From positions 1,879,501-1,943,500 of the forward strand of contig NC_013422.1 of NCBI RefSeq assembly GCF_000024765.1: a DNA stretch of 64,000 nt. Direction: 5' to 3'. The translations under genes and the position numbers were made by a program. How positions within the stretch are numbered: the first letter of the stretch is position 1; every line of letters begins with the position of its first letter. Positions 20,543-53,891 of the stretch are shown here, in pieces. The notes under the pieces are model-generated. The model was not told where the DNA came from. It ran no database searches and worked only from the letters and a program-made list of their open reading frames with translations. This stretch comes from Halothiobacillus neapolitanus c2. Its GTDB lineage: Bacteria > Pseudomonadota > Gammaproteobacteria > Halothiobacillales > Halothiobacillaceae.

Positions 20543-20997
20543 AAGCGAAACTCCGTGTGTTTGAATCCATAGCCTTGTGATATTGAGGGTATCCGTAATA
20601 CTAAGTCAATTCAGATTGTCCCACCAAGAGCTCTCTAACTAGGTCAAGGAGGGGTACACGCATTGGATAAACGGCTACCGTTTCGACTTACTCAAGGAAG
20701 CGCTGAACAGTTCTATTCTGGGGGTTTTAAAAGGGCGAAAATCAAAAAACGAGATTAGAGCACCTCAAAATACCCGTGATTCGTCGTTCCCGCGAAAGCG
20801 GGAACCCAGAAAAATCAAGGCGCTGGATTCCCGCCTACGCGGGAAAGACAAGTTTTTCGAGCTTCCCATTATTGATTTCATTCTTGAACGATCAGTTGTG
20901 TGATCGTTCATCGCAGTGCATCCCCGCCGCGCTCAGACAGTCCAATTTGATCAAAGGTTCCTCAAAAAAACCAAAATCAGGAGGACCGTTTGAGAAA
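20543..20997. other. Gene-free region with repeats between the triple-repeat gene and flgL
   Basis: No convincing gene. It contains a GGAAGCGCTGA segment at 20694-20704 that recurs in the hairpin array at 28627, the REP-type element at 20760-20868, and a perfect 10-bp hairpin TGAACGATCA/TGATCGTTCA at 20885-20910 with a six-base loop and no T run. Confidence 0.6.
20760..20868 (+). repeat. REPIN-like element, copy 1
   Basis: A 109-base element with two palindromes: GTTCCCGCGAAAGCGGGAAC near 20785-20804 and the TTCCCGCCTACGCGGGAA stem near 20827-20844. Copy 2 lies at 53715-53823 in inverted orientation, about 90 percent identical by eye over the whole length, including the non-palindromic ends (GCACCTC at one end, TTTTTCGAGCTTCCC at the other). 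The TTCCCGCG...CGGGAA core is a widespread proteobacterial REP motif. Confidence 0.8.
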
Positions 20998-23658: not shown

Positions 23659-23692
23659 GCCTTTTGCACGAAAAAATCAATAAAAGGGCGCA

Positions 23693-23803
23693 TCGAAAAC
23701 CTTTCGAGGTGCCTGTGCACCACATGGATGTGGTGCCGCGTACGTTCGTTGCGGGAAACCCGCAACGAACGTACGCGAAAAATCCCAAGGATAGGGTTTT
23801 TCG
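23693..23803 (+). repeat. Multi-hairpin intergenic array A (flgK-flgJ)
   Basis: Four hairpins in series. TCGAAA/TTTCGA at 23693-23707. CACCAC/GTGGTG around an ATGGAT loop at 23718-23735. A perfect 18-bp stem around AAA at 23738-23776 (left arm GCGTACGTTCGTTGCGGG). CGAAAAATCC paired with GGGTTTTTCG around an AAGGAT-type loop at 23776-23803. Order and loops match arrays B and C; read on the plus strand the loops show GGA. The last module could also act as a terminator. Confidence 0.75.
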
Positions 23804-23818
23804 ATGTCCACATGAGGC

Positions 23819-24880
23819 TCAGGACGCGCCCAAGCCATCCGACGAATCAGGGATTCGCCCGGATCGCATGATCGCAATGAGTTTGTCGGCATATTGTGGA
23901 TCAGTGGCATAGCCTGCCTTCTGTAGCGCGTGCGCAAAACGCTCCGGGTCGTTCTTGTCTTTCAATGCCTGGCTATACCGAGGGTTTTCCTGCAGGAACT
24001 GCACAAAATCATTGAACGAAGCGCTCACCGAATCATAGGCCCGGAACGACGCCTTGCGTTGCACCATCGCGCCACCTTCAAATTCCAGCGTGTTGACGGA
24101 TTGCTTCGCACCTTGCCATGAAGAATCGGCCTTGATGCCGAAGAAGTTGTAGTTGGCCTGCCCGTTCGCATTCACGGGTAAATGTTTACCCCAGCCGGTT
24201 TCCAGCGCCGATTGCGCCACCAGTACCTTGGCAGGGATGCCGAGTTTTTTCGCAGCCGCCTGGGCATGCGGCAAAATCGCGTTGACGAACGCCTCGGGAG
24301 AATCCCAATACTTGGGCTTATTTTGAGGGCTTACCGATGTGGCTTGGTTCGCCAGCGCAGAAACAGATGGCGCTGCATCGGACGCTTTCGCCTCAGAAGT
24401 GTTTTGCGCCTGCTTCCCCAGTGCGAAGGCCTTGAGCATCGGGTTGCGTTCCGGCAGTTTGAACGCGCGCGGGGTCGAATCGATGGTCTGTTCCGTTGCG
24501 GGATTGACCGGATGCAACGCAAAGGCATGAGGTTTGGCTTCATTGAGCGCTTTGTTCTGAGCCGTACCCGGCGTGTCCTGACTGAGCTGCCGCTCGATCA
24601 TGCCCGCCAGACCGATCCCGCCATGCGCGGCAATTTTCTGTGCGACTTCCTGATCCATCATGCTCTGGAATGTTTTGCTCTGCTGGCTGTCGAGCAAGCC
24701 ATCCTGCGGCGTGGCATCACGCATGGATTTCATCAACATGCCGATGAATTGGGTTTCAAACTGATGCGCGACGGTTTTCAGGGCCTCGCGCGGATCGTTC
24801 TGAGCCGTCGCTTTCAGTCGCGCCAAGCCTTGAAAGTCGGCGTAGCTGCTGACATCGGTACTTTGATTGATGATGCTCAT
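23819..24880 (-). CDS. flgJ: FlgJ, rod-binding protein and peptidoglycan hydrolase
   Basis: A bifunctional 353-residue FlgJ. The N-terminal domain (about 25-125) is the rod-cap/rod-binding part with VAHQFETQFIGMLMKSMRDA. A low-complexity linker follows, and the C-terminal domain (about 200-350) is a glucosaminidase-family muramidase with VLVAQSALETGWGKHL and YNFFGIKA, which opens the cell wall for the growing rod. ATG 24880 sits behind AAGGGAGG. It is separated from flgI by 175 bases that carry array C, yet no promoter is evident there, so it is probably read from flgF. Confidence 0.95.
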   Translation of the reverse strand: MSIINQSTDVSSYADFQGLARLKATAQNDPREALKTVAHQFETQFIGMLMKSMRDATPQDGLLDSQQSKTFQSMMDQEVAQKIAAHGGIGLAGMIERQLSQDTPGTAQNKALNEAKPHAFALHPVNPATEQTIDSTPRAFKLPERNPMLKAFALGKQAQNTSEAKASDAAPSVSALANQATSVSPQNKPKYWDSPEAFVNAILPHAQAAAKKLGIPAKVLVAQSALETGWGKHLPVNANGQANYNFFGIKADSSWQGAKQSVNTLEFEGGAMVQRKASFRAYDSVSASFNDFVQFLQENPRYSQALKDKNDPERFAHALQKAGYATDPQYADKLIAIMRSGRIPDSSDGLGAS

Positions 24881-24903
24881 AACACGCCCTCCCTTAGAAA
24901 TCT

Positions 24904-25049
24904 TTGCACGAATCCATCCATGGCTTCGTGCAAGCGCGCACAAGCCGGTGCATGCCCGTCTTGTGCTCCGCAATTCAATGACTTGCGTCATTGAGCGGCA
25001 GGGCATCCATACCCTGCACGGCAAGGTCTGCATTTGTGCATACCTTGCC
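24904..25049 (-). repeat. Multi-hairpin intergenic array C (flgI-flgJ)
   Basis: Five hairpins, read in minus-strand order. GGCAAGGT/ACCTTGCC at 25020-25049. GCAGGG/CCCTGC around a TATGGATG loop at 24998-25017. CAATGAC/GTCATTG at 24976-24993. GCACAAG/CTTGTGC with inner ACGGGCATGCACCGG at 24938-24966. TTGCACGAA/TTCGTGCAA with inner GCCATGGATGGA at 24904-24933. Length (146 bases) and order equal those of array B, but the stems differ in sequence. It lies in the sense direction of the flg transcript. Confidence 0.8.
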
Positions 25050-25055
25050 TTATCA

Positions 25056-26174
25056 TCAGATCACGATCAGTTGCGCCTTTAACGCACCCGCGCTTTTCAG
25101 CGCTTCGAGAATGGCAACCAGATCGGACGGCGATGCGCCCACCGCGTTCACGGCCTTGACGATATCGTTCAGCGTCACGCCCGGATTGAACAGGAAGGCA
25201 CGCTTCTTATCTTCTTTGGCGCTCACCTGGGAATTCGGCGTGACCACGGTTTGCCCTCTTGAGAATGGTGCCGGTTGCGACACCTGGGCGTTTTCTTTGA
25301 CCGTCACGGTCAGATCACCATGGGACACGGCAGCGGCCTCGATCCGCACATTCTGACCGATCACCACCGTACCGGTACGCGCATTGACGACTACTTTTGC
25401 CGCCCCTTCACCGGGCGAGACTTCTATGCCTTCAAGTACCGACATGAATCCTACGCGGGCGTTGGCATCTTGTGGCGCACGCACGCGGATCGTACCGCCA
25501 TCCACCGCTTCAGCCACACCCCCGCCCAGCATTTGGTTGATGGCTTTTTCCATATTCTTTGCCGTCGTGAAATCGGGGGTATTGAGATCCAGATAAACCG
25601 AATTCGCGCCGCCCATCGTGCTGGCAACCGAACGCTCGACCAGCGCGCCGTTCGGAATACGGCCAGCCGTCGGAATATTGACGGTCACACGGGAACCATC
25701 CTTGCCACTCACATCCAAGCCACCCACGAGCAAGCTGCCTTGTGCAACGGCATAAATTTTTCCATCAACGCCCTTAAGAGGCGTCATCAGGAGTTCGCCG
25801 CCACGCAGGCTTTTCGCATTGCCGATGGAAGAAACCGTCACGTCAATTTGTTGACCCGGCTTGGCAAACGGCGGCAAGCTCGACGTAACCATCACCGCGG
25901 CCACATTTTTGAGCTGTACGTTGCCCGCAGCGGGCGACAACCCCTGACGCGCCAGCATGTTCTGAATACTCTGCAAGGTGAATGGCACCTGCGTGGTTTG
26001 ATCCCCTGTACCCGGCAATCCCACGACCAGACCGTAACCGATGATCTGATTGTTGCGCACGCCGGCAAAGGTGGCCAAATCCTTGATGCGCTGCGCAGGT
26101 TCTTGCGTCACAGCCTGGGCTACCGTCACCGGCAGCAGCAAACCCACCAGCATAATCAGCATGAAATGGCGCAT
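25056..26174 (-). CDS. flgI: FlgI, flagellar P-ring protein
   Basis: FlgI forms the periplasmic peptidoglycan ring around the rod. The 372-residue precursor has a Sec signal peptide ([21 protein letters not shown]) and the family start [25 protein letters not shown]. The C-terminus with [23 protein letters not shown] is typical. I prefer ATG 26174, six bases after AGG, over an in-frame GTG at 26186. It follows flgH by 17 bases. Confidence 0.96.
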
Positions 26175-26191
26175 GATTGGCCTCACTCGAA

Positions 26192-26884
26192 TTAGAAAGG
26201 AAAAATTGGGCTGTTGAAGAATCGTGCCAGCCAGCCCATGTTGTTGGCGTCATTCACGGTGCCCGTTCCGCCGTAGGAAATATGCGCATCGGCAATCCGG
26301 GTAGAGAGCACGGTGTTATCCGTCGCAATATCCTGCGGGCGAACCAATCCGGATAAGCGCACGTATTCCGTACCCTGGTTGATTCCGATGTATTTCTGGC
26401 CTTGCACGAACAAGCTGCCGTTTGCATAGACCCGCGCGACCGTCACGGAAATCTGCCCTCTCAAGCTGTTGGTTTGTGCACTTGTGCCATCGCCTTTGAA
26501 TTGGTTGGCCGTGGAAATCGAGGCGCCAAAGCGATTCATGAGGTTGGCAGACAACCCACCGATGGCCGGTGGTGTGATCGCGACTGAATCGGCCTTGCTA
26601 GTGCCGGTCGTGGCGCTCTTGCTGCCGTTCATGCTCTCTTGCAGCACCACCGTCAAAATGTCGCCCACTCGATAGGGTCGGGAGTCGACAAACATGTTAT
26701 CCATCTGACCGGACTGGTAGATCGAGCCGTTATTCTGCATGGGATTGTTGGTAGACGCCTCCGGCGGCATGACGACCGCAAAAGACGGATCGGGCTTCAT
26801 CGGCGGTTGGCTTGCGCAGCCACTCAAGCTGGCGACGATACTCAGGCCGATCACACCCAAACCTAAAATTCGATATCGGTTCAT
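26192..26884 (-). CDS. flgH: FlgH, flagellar L-ring lipoprotein
   Basis: FlgH forms the outer-membrane L ring. The 230-residue precursor has a lipoprotein signal with lipobox LSGC (Cys near residue 23). The mature part contains the family segment [13 protein letters not shown] and [26 protein letters not shown], and ends in [20 protein letters not shown] 26884 places the signal peptide correctly. Confidence 0.95.
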
Positions 26885-26907
26885 ACCCCAACCCTTCCTA
26901 ATCAAGC

Positions 26908-27696
26908 TCAGGTGTTCTGATTCAAGGTCTGCAACATGCTGGATGTCGCGGAAATGGCCTTGGAATTCATTTCGTAGGCACGTTGCGTTTCAATCATGCT
27001 GACCAGCTCTTCGACCACGTTCACATTGGAGCTTTCGAGCATGCCTTGCTGCATATTGCCCACGCCGTTCAAACCGGGCGTGCTGGTTTGTGGCGCGCCG
27101 CTGGAGCCGGATTCCAAAAACAGGTTATCGCCTATGGGCTGCAAACCGGCGGGATTCACAAAATCGGCCAGATCGATCGTACCGACCTGACTCGGCTGGG
27201 CCTGCCCCGCCAGTTGCACGCTGACCGTGCCATCTTTACCCACCGTGATTGATTGCGCGCCCTGCGGCACGGTAATCGCCGGTTGCAAGGGGTAACCGTT
27301 CGCCGTGACGACTTGACCATTGCTGTCGAGACTAAAGCTCCCATCACGGGTATAAGCCACGGAACCATCCGGTTGCAGCACCTGGAAAAACCCACGGCCA
27401 TTGATCGCCAAGTCCAGTGCGTTATTGGTGGTTACCAAGTTGCCTTGGGTATGATTCTTTTCCGTCGCCACCACCTTGACACCCGTACCGATATTCAAAC
27501 CGGTGGGTACTTCGTTCTGTTGCGTGTTGGCCGCGCCAACCTGACGGTAGTTCTGATAAATCAGATCTTCGAATACCGCCCGATCCTGTTTGAAACCCGT
27601 GGTGTTGACGTTCGCCAGGTTGTTCGAAATCACGGACATGCGGGTCTGCTGGGCATCAAGGCCGGTTTTGGCAATCCATAAAGCAGGTGTCGTCAT
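26908..27696 (-). CDS. flgG: FlgG, distal rod protein
   Basis: FlgG is the major distal-rod subunit. The 262-residue protein has the bacterial rod signature near its N-terminus ([20 protein letters not shown]) and the matching C-terminal helix ([20 protein letters not shown]). Length and order (flgF-flgG-flgH) are standard. Confidence 0.96.
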
Positions 27697-27706
27697 GATT
27701 TAATCC

Positions 27707-28450
27707 TCAACTGAATTTCAATAATTGATCGGCCGCCGAACTATTGGCATCGGCCGTTTTGATCATCTTGGTCTGCATTTCGAACAGGCGGCCGTACTCG
27801 ATCATCTTCACCATCGAGTCGACCGGATTCACATTGCTGCCTTCCAACACGCCGCTGGCAACCTGCACGGCTGCGTCCGGTTGTGGGACAGGCGTGTTCG
27901 GTTTGAGCGCGAACAAACCATCCCCGCGTTTTTGCAGATCGGCCAATGGCGGATTGACCAGACGAATCCGATCGATCTGCGCCGGTGCATTGACATCGCC
28001 GCCAAGCGGGATGATCGAGATCGTGCCATCGCCCAGAATATCGATCTTGCTTGCCGGCGGAATGGCAATCGGCCCTTGGTTGCCCAGCACGGGAGCGCCG
28101 GTACCGGTTTGCAGTTGTCCATTCGGTGAGATATGCAGATCGCCGCGGCGGGTATAAGCCGTCGAACCATCGGGCGCCTGAACAGCCATGAACCCCTGCC
28201 CCTTGAGCGCAACATCCAAGCTACGCCCCGTTGTCATCAGTGGGCCCTGGGCAAAATCGGTGCCGCTGCGCTCATCCTGGGCATACACCCGGCTTGCATA
28301 ACCGGGGCCATAAACCGGCATGGATTGAAAAGCATCCAGATCGGCCTTAAACCCCTGGGTGCTCACGTTGGCCAGATTGTTGGCATTGGTCGATTGGGCC
28401 AGCAGCGTTTGCTTGGCGCCACTCATGGCAATGTAGGCGAGACGATCCAT
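27707..28450 (-). CDS. flgF: FlgF, proximal rod protein
   Basis: FlgF is a rod subunit. The 247-residue protein starts MDRLAYIAMSGAKQTLLAQ with the rod signature TNANNLANVSTQGFKADL, and ends with the coiled SNVNPVDSMVKMIEYGRLFE helix. ATG 28450 lies behind a GAGGAG ribosome site. It is the first gene of flgFGHIJ, with its own sigma-54 site 40 bases upstream. Confidence 0.95.
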   Translation of the reverse strand: MDRLAYIAMSGAKQTLLAQSTNANNLANVSTQGFKADLDAFQSMPVYGPGYASRVYAQDERSGTDFAQGPLMTTGRSLDVALKGQGFMAVQAPDGSTAYTRRGDLHISPNGQLQTGTGAPVLGNQGPIAIPPASKIDILGDGTISIIPLGGDVNAPAQIDRIRLVNPPLADLQKRGDGLFALKPNTPVPQPDAAVQVASGVLEGSNVNPVDSMVKMIEYGRLFEMQTKMIKTADANSSAADQLLKFS

Positions 28451-28489
28451 AACCGGCTCCTCACTGAATAATGAATACAGTTGTTTCAA

Positions 28490-28505
28490 AGCACAGGACG
28501 TGCCA
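28490..28505 (-). promoter_or_regulatory. Sigma-54 promoter for flgF
   Basis: On the minus strand TGGCACGTCCTGTGCT matches the sigma-54 consensus TGGCACG-N4-TTGCW with GG and GC at the required spacing and one mismatch in the -12 element. The start point would fall near 28478, leaving a short leader before flgF. Confidence 0.8.
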
Positions 28506-28625
28506 ATTATTGAAAATCAGCTCCAAACCTTAGCCTGATGCGGTATAGCGCCATGGCTTGTCACCACAGAGACGCAATAGCCAATTTTATGACGCCATCC
28601 TGACATCCCGTTCACACTTGATTTA

Positions 28626-28771
28626 GGGAAGCGCTGATTTATTCAGTGCTTCCCGTTTGGGGCAGGATGGCCCAACACGAACAAAGACGTACGTCTTTGA
28701 TTCGTGAGAGCCATCGCGGGCGTGTACCGCGATGAGCGAGCTGATTTATTCCAAGGATGGAATAAATCAGC
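28626..28771 (+). repeat. Multi-hairpin intergenic array B (flgF-flgE)
   Basis: Five hairpins in plus-strand order. GGGAAGCGCTGA/TCAGTGCTTCCC at 28626-28654 (one G-T pair). TTGGG/CCCAA around a loop with CAGGATG at 28657-28675. CACGAACAAAGACGT/ACGTCTTTGATTCGTG at 28676-28706 (one bulge). CATCGCGG/CCGCGATG around GCGTGTA at 28712-28734. A perfect 13-bp stem around AAGGAT at 28740-28771. The first and last modules share CTGATTTATTC. A terminator follows 14 bases downstream. Confidence 0.8.
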
Positions 28772-28784
28772 ATTTACTTAGGGC

Positions 28785-28814
28785 AAAAAAAAGACGGCAC
28801 ACTGTCCGTCTTTT
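28785..28814 (-). terminator. Terminator after flgE (possibly bidirectional)
   Basis: Stem AAAAGACGG/CCGTCTTTT with an eight-base loop. On the minus strand it is followed by eight T residues, ending the flgBCDE transcript 46 bases after flgE. A TTTT tract on the plus strand could also end a transcript through array B. Confidence 0.88.
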
Positions 28815-28859
28815 AGATCACGCTTTGTCCAATCTACCAGCCAGATTTACCGGCCAGGT

Positions 28860-49118: not shown

Positions 49119-49326
49119 CCTTGATATTCCCCGCCAAATACCTAAAAGACCGCAGTCGCGGCGCCTTCAGGAGTCATCAGCCACCAGAAGTGGGGGCGGT
49201 TACGGCGAACTCCATCGCCATTTCGTTGTATCAGACAATTATGATACTAGCATTCTAGTTGCACGCGTCAATGACGGAGAGTTGAACTGTCAACACAAAG
49301 TAGCAATATTCCGTTTTCAAAATCAG

Positions 49327-53410: not shown

Positions 53411-53891
53411 TCTGAGCATGGCAACGATTGAAATCCGGGCGGCTAGCTAAACAACTAATGCTAACTTGGCGTACAGCCAAATAATATCGGATGAGTAGCA
53501 TACCCTGAACCATCAGCACAATGAAGGGCGAGAAACTGAAGGTTGCCTTTCGGGCAGATCGCGTGCGAACGCCGCCCCGCGATGAAACGCAACCAACAGT
53601 TATCTTGTTGTTTCTTATCCACGAACCAATTCCATGAGTTTATTGAATTCAGTGCTCCGAGATTTTGCGGCGCACGTTCTGCTCAAGTTCAATGCTGGCC
53701 TGATAGCCAGGAATAGGGAAGCTCGAAAAACCAGTCATTCCCGCGTAGGCGGGAATCCAGCGCCCTGATTTATCTGGTTTCCCGCTTTCGCGAGAACGAC
53801 GAATCACGAGTATTTCGAGGTGCCCAATACGAACTGCCGATGTTCAAGCCAACCGCTCAAAATTCTCGTCCAAATTGATACGAATCGACAC
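53411..53891. other. Gene-free stretch between the pst control region and the flavin operon
   Basis: No credible coding sequence; it holds REPIN-like copy 2 (53715-53823) and otherwise no structure that I can assign. Confidence 0.55.
53715..53823 (-). repeat. REPIN-like element, copy 2
   Basis: Inverted copy of the element at 20760-20868. On the minus strand it starts GCACCTCGAAATACTCGTG, carries the same two GC-rich palindromes with a few substitutions, and ends TTTTTCGAGCTTCCC. The two copies are equal in length. Confidence 0.8.

Follow-up and report, generated by a model that had tools for sequence, protein, structure and literature searches.

The three hairpin arrays that lie between flagellar genes of Halothiobacillus neapolitanus c2 are almost certainly copies of a mobile, non-autonomous transposable element (MITE) of the IS5 type, about 152 bp in length. 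The account that we favor as a whole, and consider probable, joins an IS5-type MITE to a folded strand bearing GGA loops that is under selection and to predicted binding of CsrA/RsmA by these loops.

Hairpin arrays in the flagellar locus

The window analyzed is a 64,000-nucleotide stretch (C1 1879501-1943500) of the 2,582,886-bp genome. One hairpin array, here called A, B or C, is present in each of the flgK-flgJ, flgJ-flgI, and flgF-flgE gaps. The structured character that an earlier note on this DNA had ascribed to these gaps is borne out, as all three arrays fold far better than their shuffles (z -6.7 to -12.2), whichever strand is read. Clusters of at least four hairpins occur six times in the genome and are absent from two genomes simulated with an order-5 Markov model.

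Element C (28626-28777, + strand) comprises five hairpins in 152 bp and matches our covariance model at E 7.2e-44, with C itself in the training set of the model. It has the inverted ends GGGAAGCGCTGATTTATTC and GTAAATGCTGATTTATTC and is bordered by the target duplication TTAG (28623-28626 and 28778-28781). Its hairpin 1 (28626-28654, +) is formed by the 5' inverted end and its own complement, hairpin 2 (28657-28675, +) presents the loop motif CAGGATG, hairpin 3 (28676-28706, +) is built on the core GACGTACGTC, hairpin 4 (28712-28734, +) reads GGGCGTGTACC, and hairpin 5 (28740-28771, +) reads CCAAGGATGG and contains the 3' inverted end. Element B (24897-25049, - strand) likewise has five hairpins, in 153 bp, and matches the model at E 1.1e-33, B also being in the training set; TAAG is common to both of its flanks, hairpin 2 (24998-25017, -) has an ATGGAT loop, and hairpin 5 (24904-24933, -) reads CCATGGATGG. 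Element A (23686-23809, + strand) is a shortened member of 124 bp, matched at E 1.7e-12 by the model built without it. In A, a single 18-bp stem (23738-23776, +) takes the place of hairpins 3 and 4, hairpin 2 (23717-23736, +) reads CACATGGATGTG with the motif CANGGANG, and the ends resemble those of a resident 1277-bp IS5-family insertion sequence (IS). A fourth, degraded five-hairpin element (20692-20968, -) is interrupted by a 110-bp MITE at 20760-20867. Elsewhere in the window, a fluoride riboswitch was detected at 49161-49228 (-) (Rfam RF01734, 50.9 bits).

When the elements are read with their GGATG loops, the order of modules given in the earlier note (plain, GGATG, GACG-type, GGGCRTGYACC, CCAWGGATGG) is correct. 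Its strand assignment holds for A and is inverted for the other two, which it had placed on the + (B) and - (C) strands, and its length of 146 bases for B and C is accurate from hairpin to hairpin, short of the full extent of the elements.

A dispersed repeat family

Queries with each array in nhmmer revealed a dispersed family of several subfamilies in this genome, with 40 merged regions including fragments, 24 of which were curated as copies. A covariance model, R1, was built from nine elements, with B and C included and A left out. The earlier note had proposed such a scan of the genome, with a lack of further members as the adverse outcome; R1 returned 17 matches at E < 1e-9. Members of the family carry no transposase gene, and their 152 bp are wholly taken up by hairpins. 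The median length is 152 (quartiles 151-153), a constancy that the fixed-length model favors in its selection, and several types of end sequence surround one shared core.

Beyond this genome, R1 matched 35 of the 274 genomes sampled from the class, nearly always at full length and spread over about 30 genera. In the sample from the phylum, it matched 37 of 349 genomes, many of them outside the class. A scan of named genomes with a pattern narrower than the covariance model yielded only Gammaproteobacteria among the 80 matches listed, including Immundisolibacter, Ectothiorhodospiraceae, Chromatiales, and a Lysobacter MAG. One consensus element, assembled by hand, matched none of the plasmid and phage records. 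Short palindromes resembling hairpin 1 of the subfamily with CAGGCTGCTGAAATAC ends were seen at C1 63975-64035 and 1186678-1186726, where the remainder of the element seems to be absent, and C-type elements occur in tandem in one congener (G002, C89 70203-70736).

Evidence for mobility

The elements bear terminal inverted repeats (TIRs) of about 18 bp that resemble IS5-family ends. C-type copies are flanked by duplications of TTAG, CTAG, ATAG, CAAG, or CTAA, which mostly fit YTAR, the target motif of IS5 (PMC10359306), and in a further 68 elements, duplications of 4-5 bp were found in 36, with YTAR contained in 28 of these. For each of five copies found in relatives (L168, L176, L191, L210, and L216), the H. 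neapolitanus c2 genome keeps one exact, uninterrupted target site at the place where the relative carries the element between two. C-type copies are amplified to about 25 in one congener, at 96-99% identity, and are numerous also in another congener and in another genus. The insertion of C between flgE and flgF is shared, with matching flanks, by this genome and two others (G001 and G002). Five congeners that are more distant have 196-299 bp less sequence between flgF and flgE, which, judged by spacing only, fits the absence of C. The inverted ends, YTAR duplications, empty sites, and amplified copies lead us to class the arrays as MITEs.

Candidate partners were found in related genomes as ISs with IS5-family transposase genes (NF033581, 284-308 bits against a cut-off of 140). 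Their ends read GGAAGGTCTGATCAATTC (at both ends, with a TTAA duplication) or GGAACCTCTGATTGAATC and differ from the ends of the element by 2-5 mismatches; in one such IS (L219), the ends lack hairpin 1. We found no IS with ends identical to those of C, and no DDE_Tnp_1 gene was found in a genome rich in copies (G015). Judged from the similarity of ends and targets, IS5-type transposases probably move the five-hairpin MITE.

The 1277-bp IS5-family IS of H. neapolitanus c2 is present as two identical copies (C1 505763-507039 and 2077792-2079068), with no clear target duplication at either; their identity suggests recent transposition. Its ends are similar to those of a second MITE family of 109-110 bp, which forms hairpins of the type GTCATTCCCGC...GCGGGAAT, is flanked by 4-bp duplications, and is present in 85-90 copies genome-wide, for example at 53716-53824 (+) of the window. 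This second MITE splits several five-hairpin elements, among them the fourth copy in the window, and mostly sits in hairpin 3.

Conservation of the fold

In an alignment of 45 elements, which is biased towards the structure because it was fitted to it, 96.0% of stem cells are paired, compared with 68.6% after shuffling and 35-42% with slid partners. Two-sided changes were found at 50 of 54 pairs (40 when shuffled, 22-31 when slid), and doubly changed cells number 635 against 181 in the shuffled control. MAFFT alignments that were not fitted to the structure (A2 and A4) agree with this result. These compensatory changes support the selection on structure proposed in the earlier note. Its further claim, that structure was selected rather than recently copied, is at least incomplete in view of the TIRs, YTAR duplications, empty sites, and near-identical amplified copies in relatives; copying and structural selection are thus both true. 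A GNRA tetraloop was considered as a constant trait of hairpin 3 and rejected, being present in only part of the copies.

The stems are nearly all Watson-Crick, with 5419 such pairs against 59 G-T and 18 A-C, and there are few intermediates between paired states. On the strand bearing the GGA loops, G-T exceeds A-C among mispairs (59:18 raw, 38:18 in unique contexts, p 0.01); the ratio is 5:5 in the five-hairpin copies of this genome alone and 3:7 in the 110-bp MITE. G-U pairs make up about 1% of stem positions, which is unusual for RNA and compatible with a constraint at the level of DNA.

Conserved GGA loops

The loops of hairpins 2 and 5 read CA(N)GGANG. In hairpin 2, the letters A, G, G, and A are each kept in 44 of 45 elements and the N before GGA is free, and in hairpin 5 the GGA letters are kept in 43 of 44, 38 of 43, and 42 of 43, with variable N positions. 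The set from the scan of named genomes was excluded from these counts because it had been picked with the GGA motif. The motif occurs predominantly on one strand (86:11), and the two GGA motifs are 89-96 apart in 37 of 38 cases, a constancy that the fixed-length model favors. Together with the excess of G-T mispairs, this strand bias favors a folded single strand over symmetric DNA, and we consider it very likely that selection acts on such a strand, whether RNA or DNA.

The published RsmE/RsmA consensus is (A/U)CANGGANG(U/A), and the consensus obtained for E. coli CsrA by SELEX is RUACARGGAUGU (PMC6692469). The loops of hairpins 2 and 5 fit the former, a match that was spotted after the fact, and the common loop form ACAGGGATGT fits the core ACARGGAUGU of the latter. 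A csrA gene is present in this genome and in 32 of the 35 element-positive genomes (it was undetected in three, all drafts) versus 235 of the 274 sampled overall, a difference that does not discriminate. The copies in this genome show no orientation bias towards genes (12 ++, 7 --, 5 +-, and 4 -+), and Rfam models of the CsrB/RsmZ class gave no match to the element at the gathering threshold. Given this lack of orientation preference, the uninformative link to csrA, and the scarcity of G-U pairs, we infer the CsrA step from loop anatomy, and CsrA/RsmA is a putative ligand of the GGA hairpins that we propose tentatively.

Alternative explanations and proposed mechanism

The hairpins of the MITE might matter as DNA only, if the transposase or host proteins read cruciforms or folded single-stranded DNA, or if hairpin-templated repair maintains the complementarity of the arms. 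The nearly perfect stems with few intermediates between paired states are in keeping with such a role, as is the lack of orientation bias to genes. A role for double-stranded DNA or cruciforms predicts strand symmetry, however, whereas both the loops and the wobble pairs favor one strand; nor do the copies show an orientation bias relative to the replication fork (13 of 28), and the L219 IS has ends that dispense with hairpin 1. We therefore regard a DNA-only role as unlikely, though still to be reckoned with. It is very improbable that the arrays are ordinary bidirectional terminators or mRNA stabilizers clustered between flagellar genes. They are strong hairpins in intergenic gaps, and a terminator-like stem does lie 3' of C (~28791-28816), but this stem is separate from the array, which itself has no U-tracts. 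In addition, the element is dispersed genome-wide and across many genera with transposon ends, and termination does not require invariant GGA loops.

In being intergenic, multi-hairpin, and of high copy number, the arrays also recall elements of the REP/BIME or IS200/IS605 type, which single-strand (Y1) transposases mobilize through recognition of hairpins. Those families are not known to duplicate their target or to have long TIRs, and the 4-bp duplications and ~18-bp IS5-like TIRs of the present element make such an origin extremely improbable. The covariation and conserved loops could also have come from a riboswitch or other cis-regulatory RNA that stays in place in the flagellar operons; this reading is refuted by the empty sites and by the presence of copies, in either orientation, at many further loci, and the shorter flgF-flgE spacing of five congeners fits no insertion there. 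Regulation of flagellar genes by the arrays was rejected as well, since the copies occupy many loci; the fixed position relative to genes that the earlier note had suggested checking was not found, and there is no special tie to flagellar genes.

Under the preferred account of a MITE with a selected, GGA-bearing fold, an IS5-type transposase would act in trans on the ends of the element. The folded GGA-bearing strand would be retained for a function as a single strand, most likely as read-through RNA, and hairpins 2 and 5, ~92 nt apart, may, with less certainty, bind one CsrA/RsmA dimer. Every inserted copy could then give its host transcript a CsrA-binding module or serve as a small CsrA sponge. 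A broader generalization, which we put forward as possible and still more tentative than the assignment of the ligand, is that the elements are widespread mobile, transposase-dependent RNA cassettes whose five-hairpin cargo, with two predicted high-affinity CsrA/RsmA sites and one core on several transposon ends, wires transcripts into the Csr/Rsm network or titrates it.

Relation to known elements

MITEs, IS5 targets, and GGA hairpins are each known already. No Rfam family matches the five-hairpin element, in agreement with the earlier note, which knew of no named family with this layout. A search of open-access papers likewise turned up no description of a MITE of proteobacteria that combines a covarying core of five hairpins with two loops of the CsrA type, an absence that is weak evidence of novelty. 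That compensatory changes should preserve the interior of a MITE in many genera was not to be expected, as MITEs are generally taken to require only their ends. If the CsrA match is true, transposition would spread binding sites of a post-transcriptional regulator, and many proteobacterial genomes would contain hidden CsrA targets in the form of these copies. Without a CsrA role, the family is still a common repeat, apparently unannotated so far, for which R1 offers a means of annotation.

ERIC, Correia, and BOX repeats are likewise structured and intergenic, of similar size, and able to enter transcripts, and by description they differ from the five-hairpin element in sequence, ends, and architecture. 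The small RNAs CsrB, CsrC, RsmY, and RsmZ also fold into several hairpins whose GGA loops conform to CA(N)GGANG, whereas the element has only two such loops, is mobile and multi-copy, and has no identified promoter or terminator. IS5-family ISs (NF033581) share similar ends and the same YTAR target; unlike them, the element has no transposase, and the L219 IS lacks hairpin 1 at its ends. Prokaryotic IS-derived MITEs are described as short, non-coding, intergenic, and multi-copy, with TIRs, target duplications, and transcripts predicted to fold (PMC10969869), and the five-hairpin element has these traits in common with them. It differs from other MITEs in its five separate hairpins, kept in a fixed order by compensatory change across genera, and in the presence of one core within several different end sequences.
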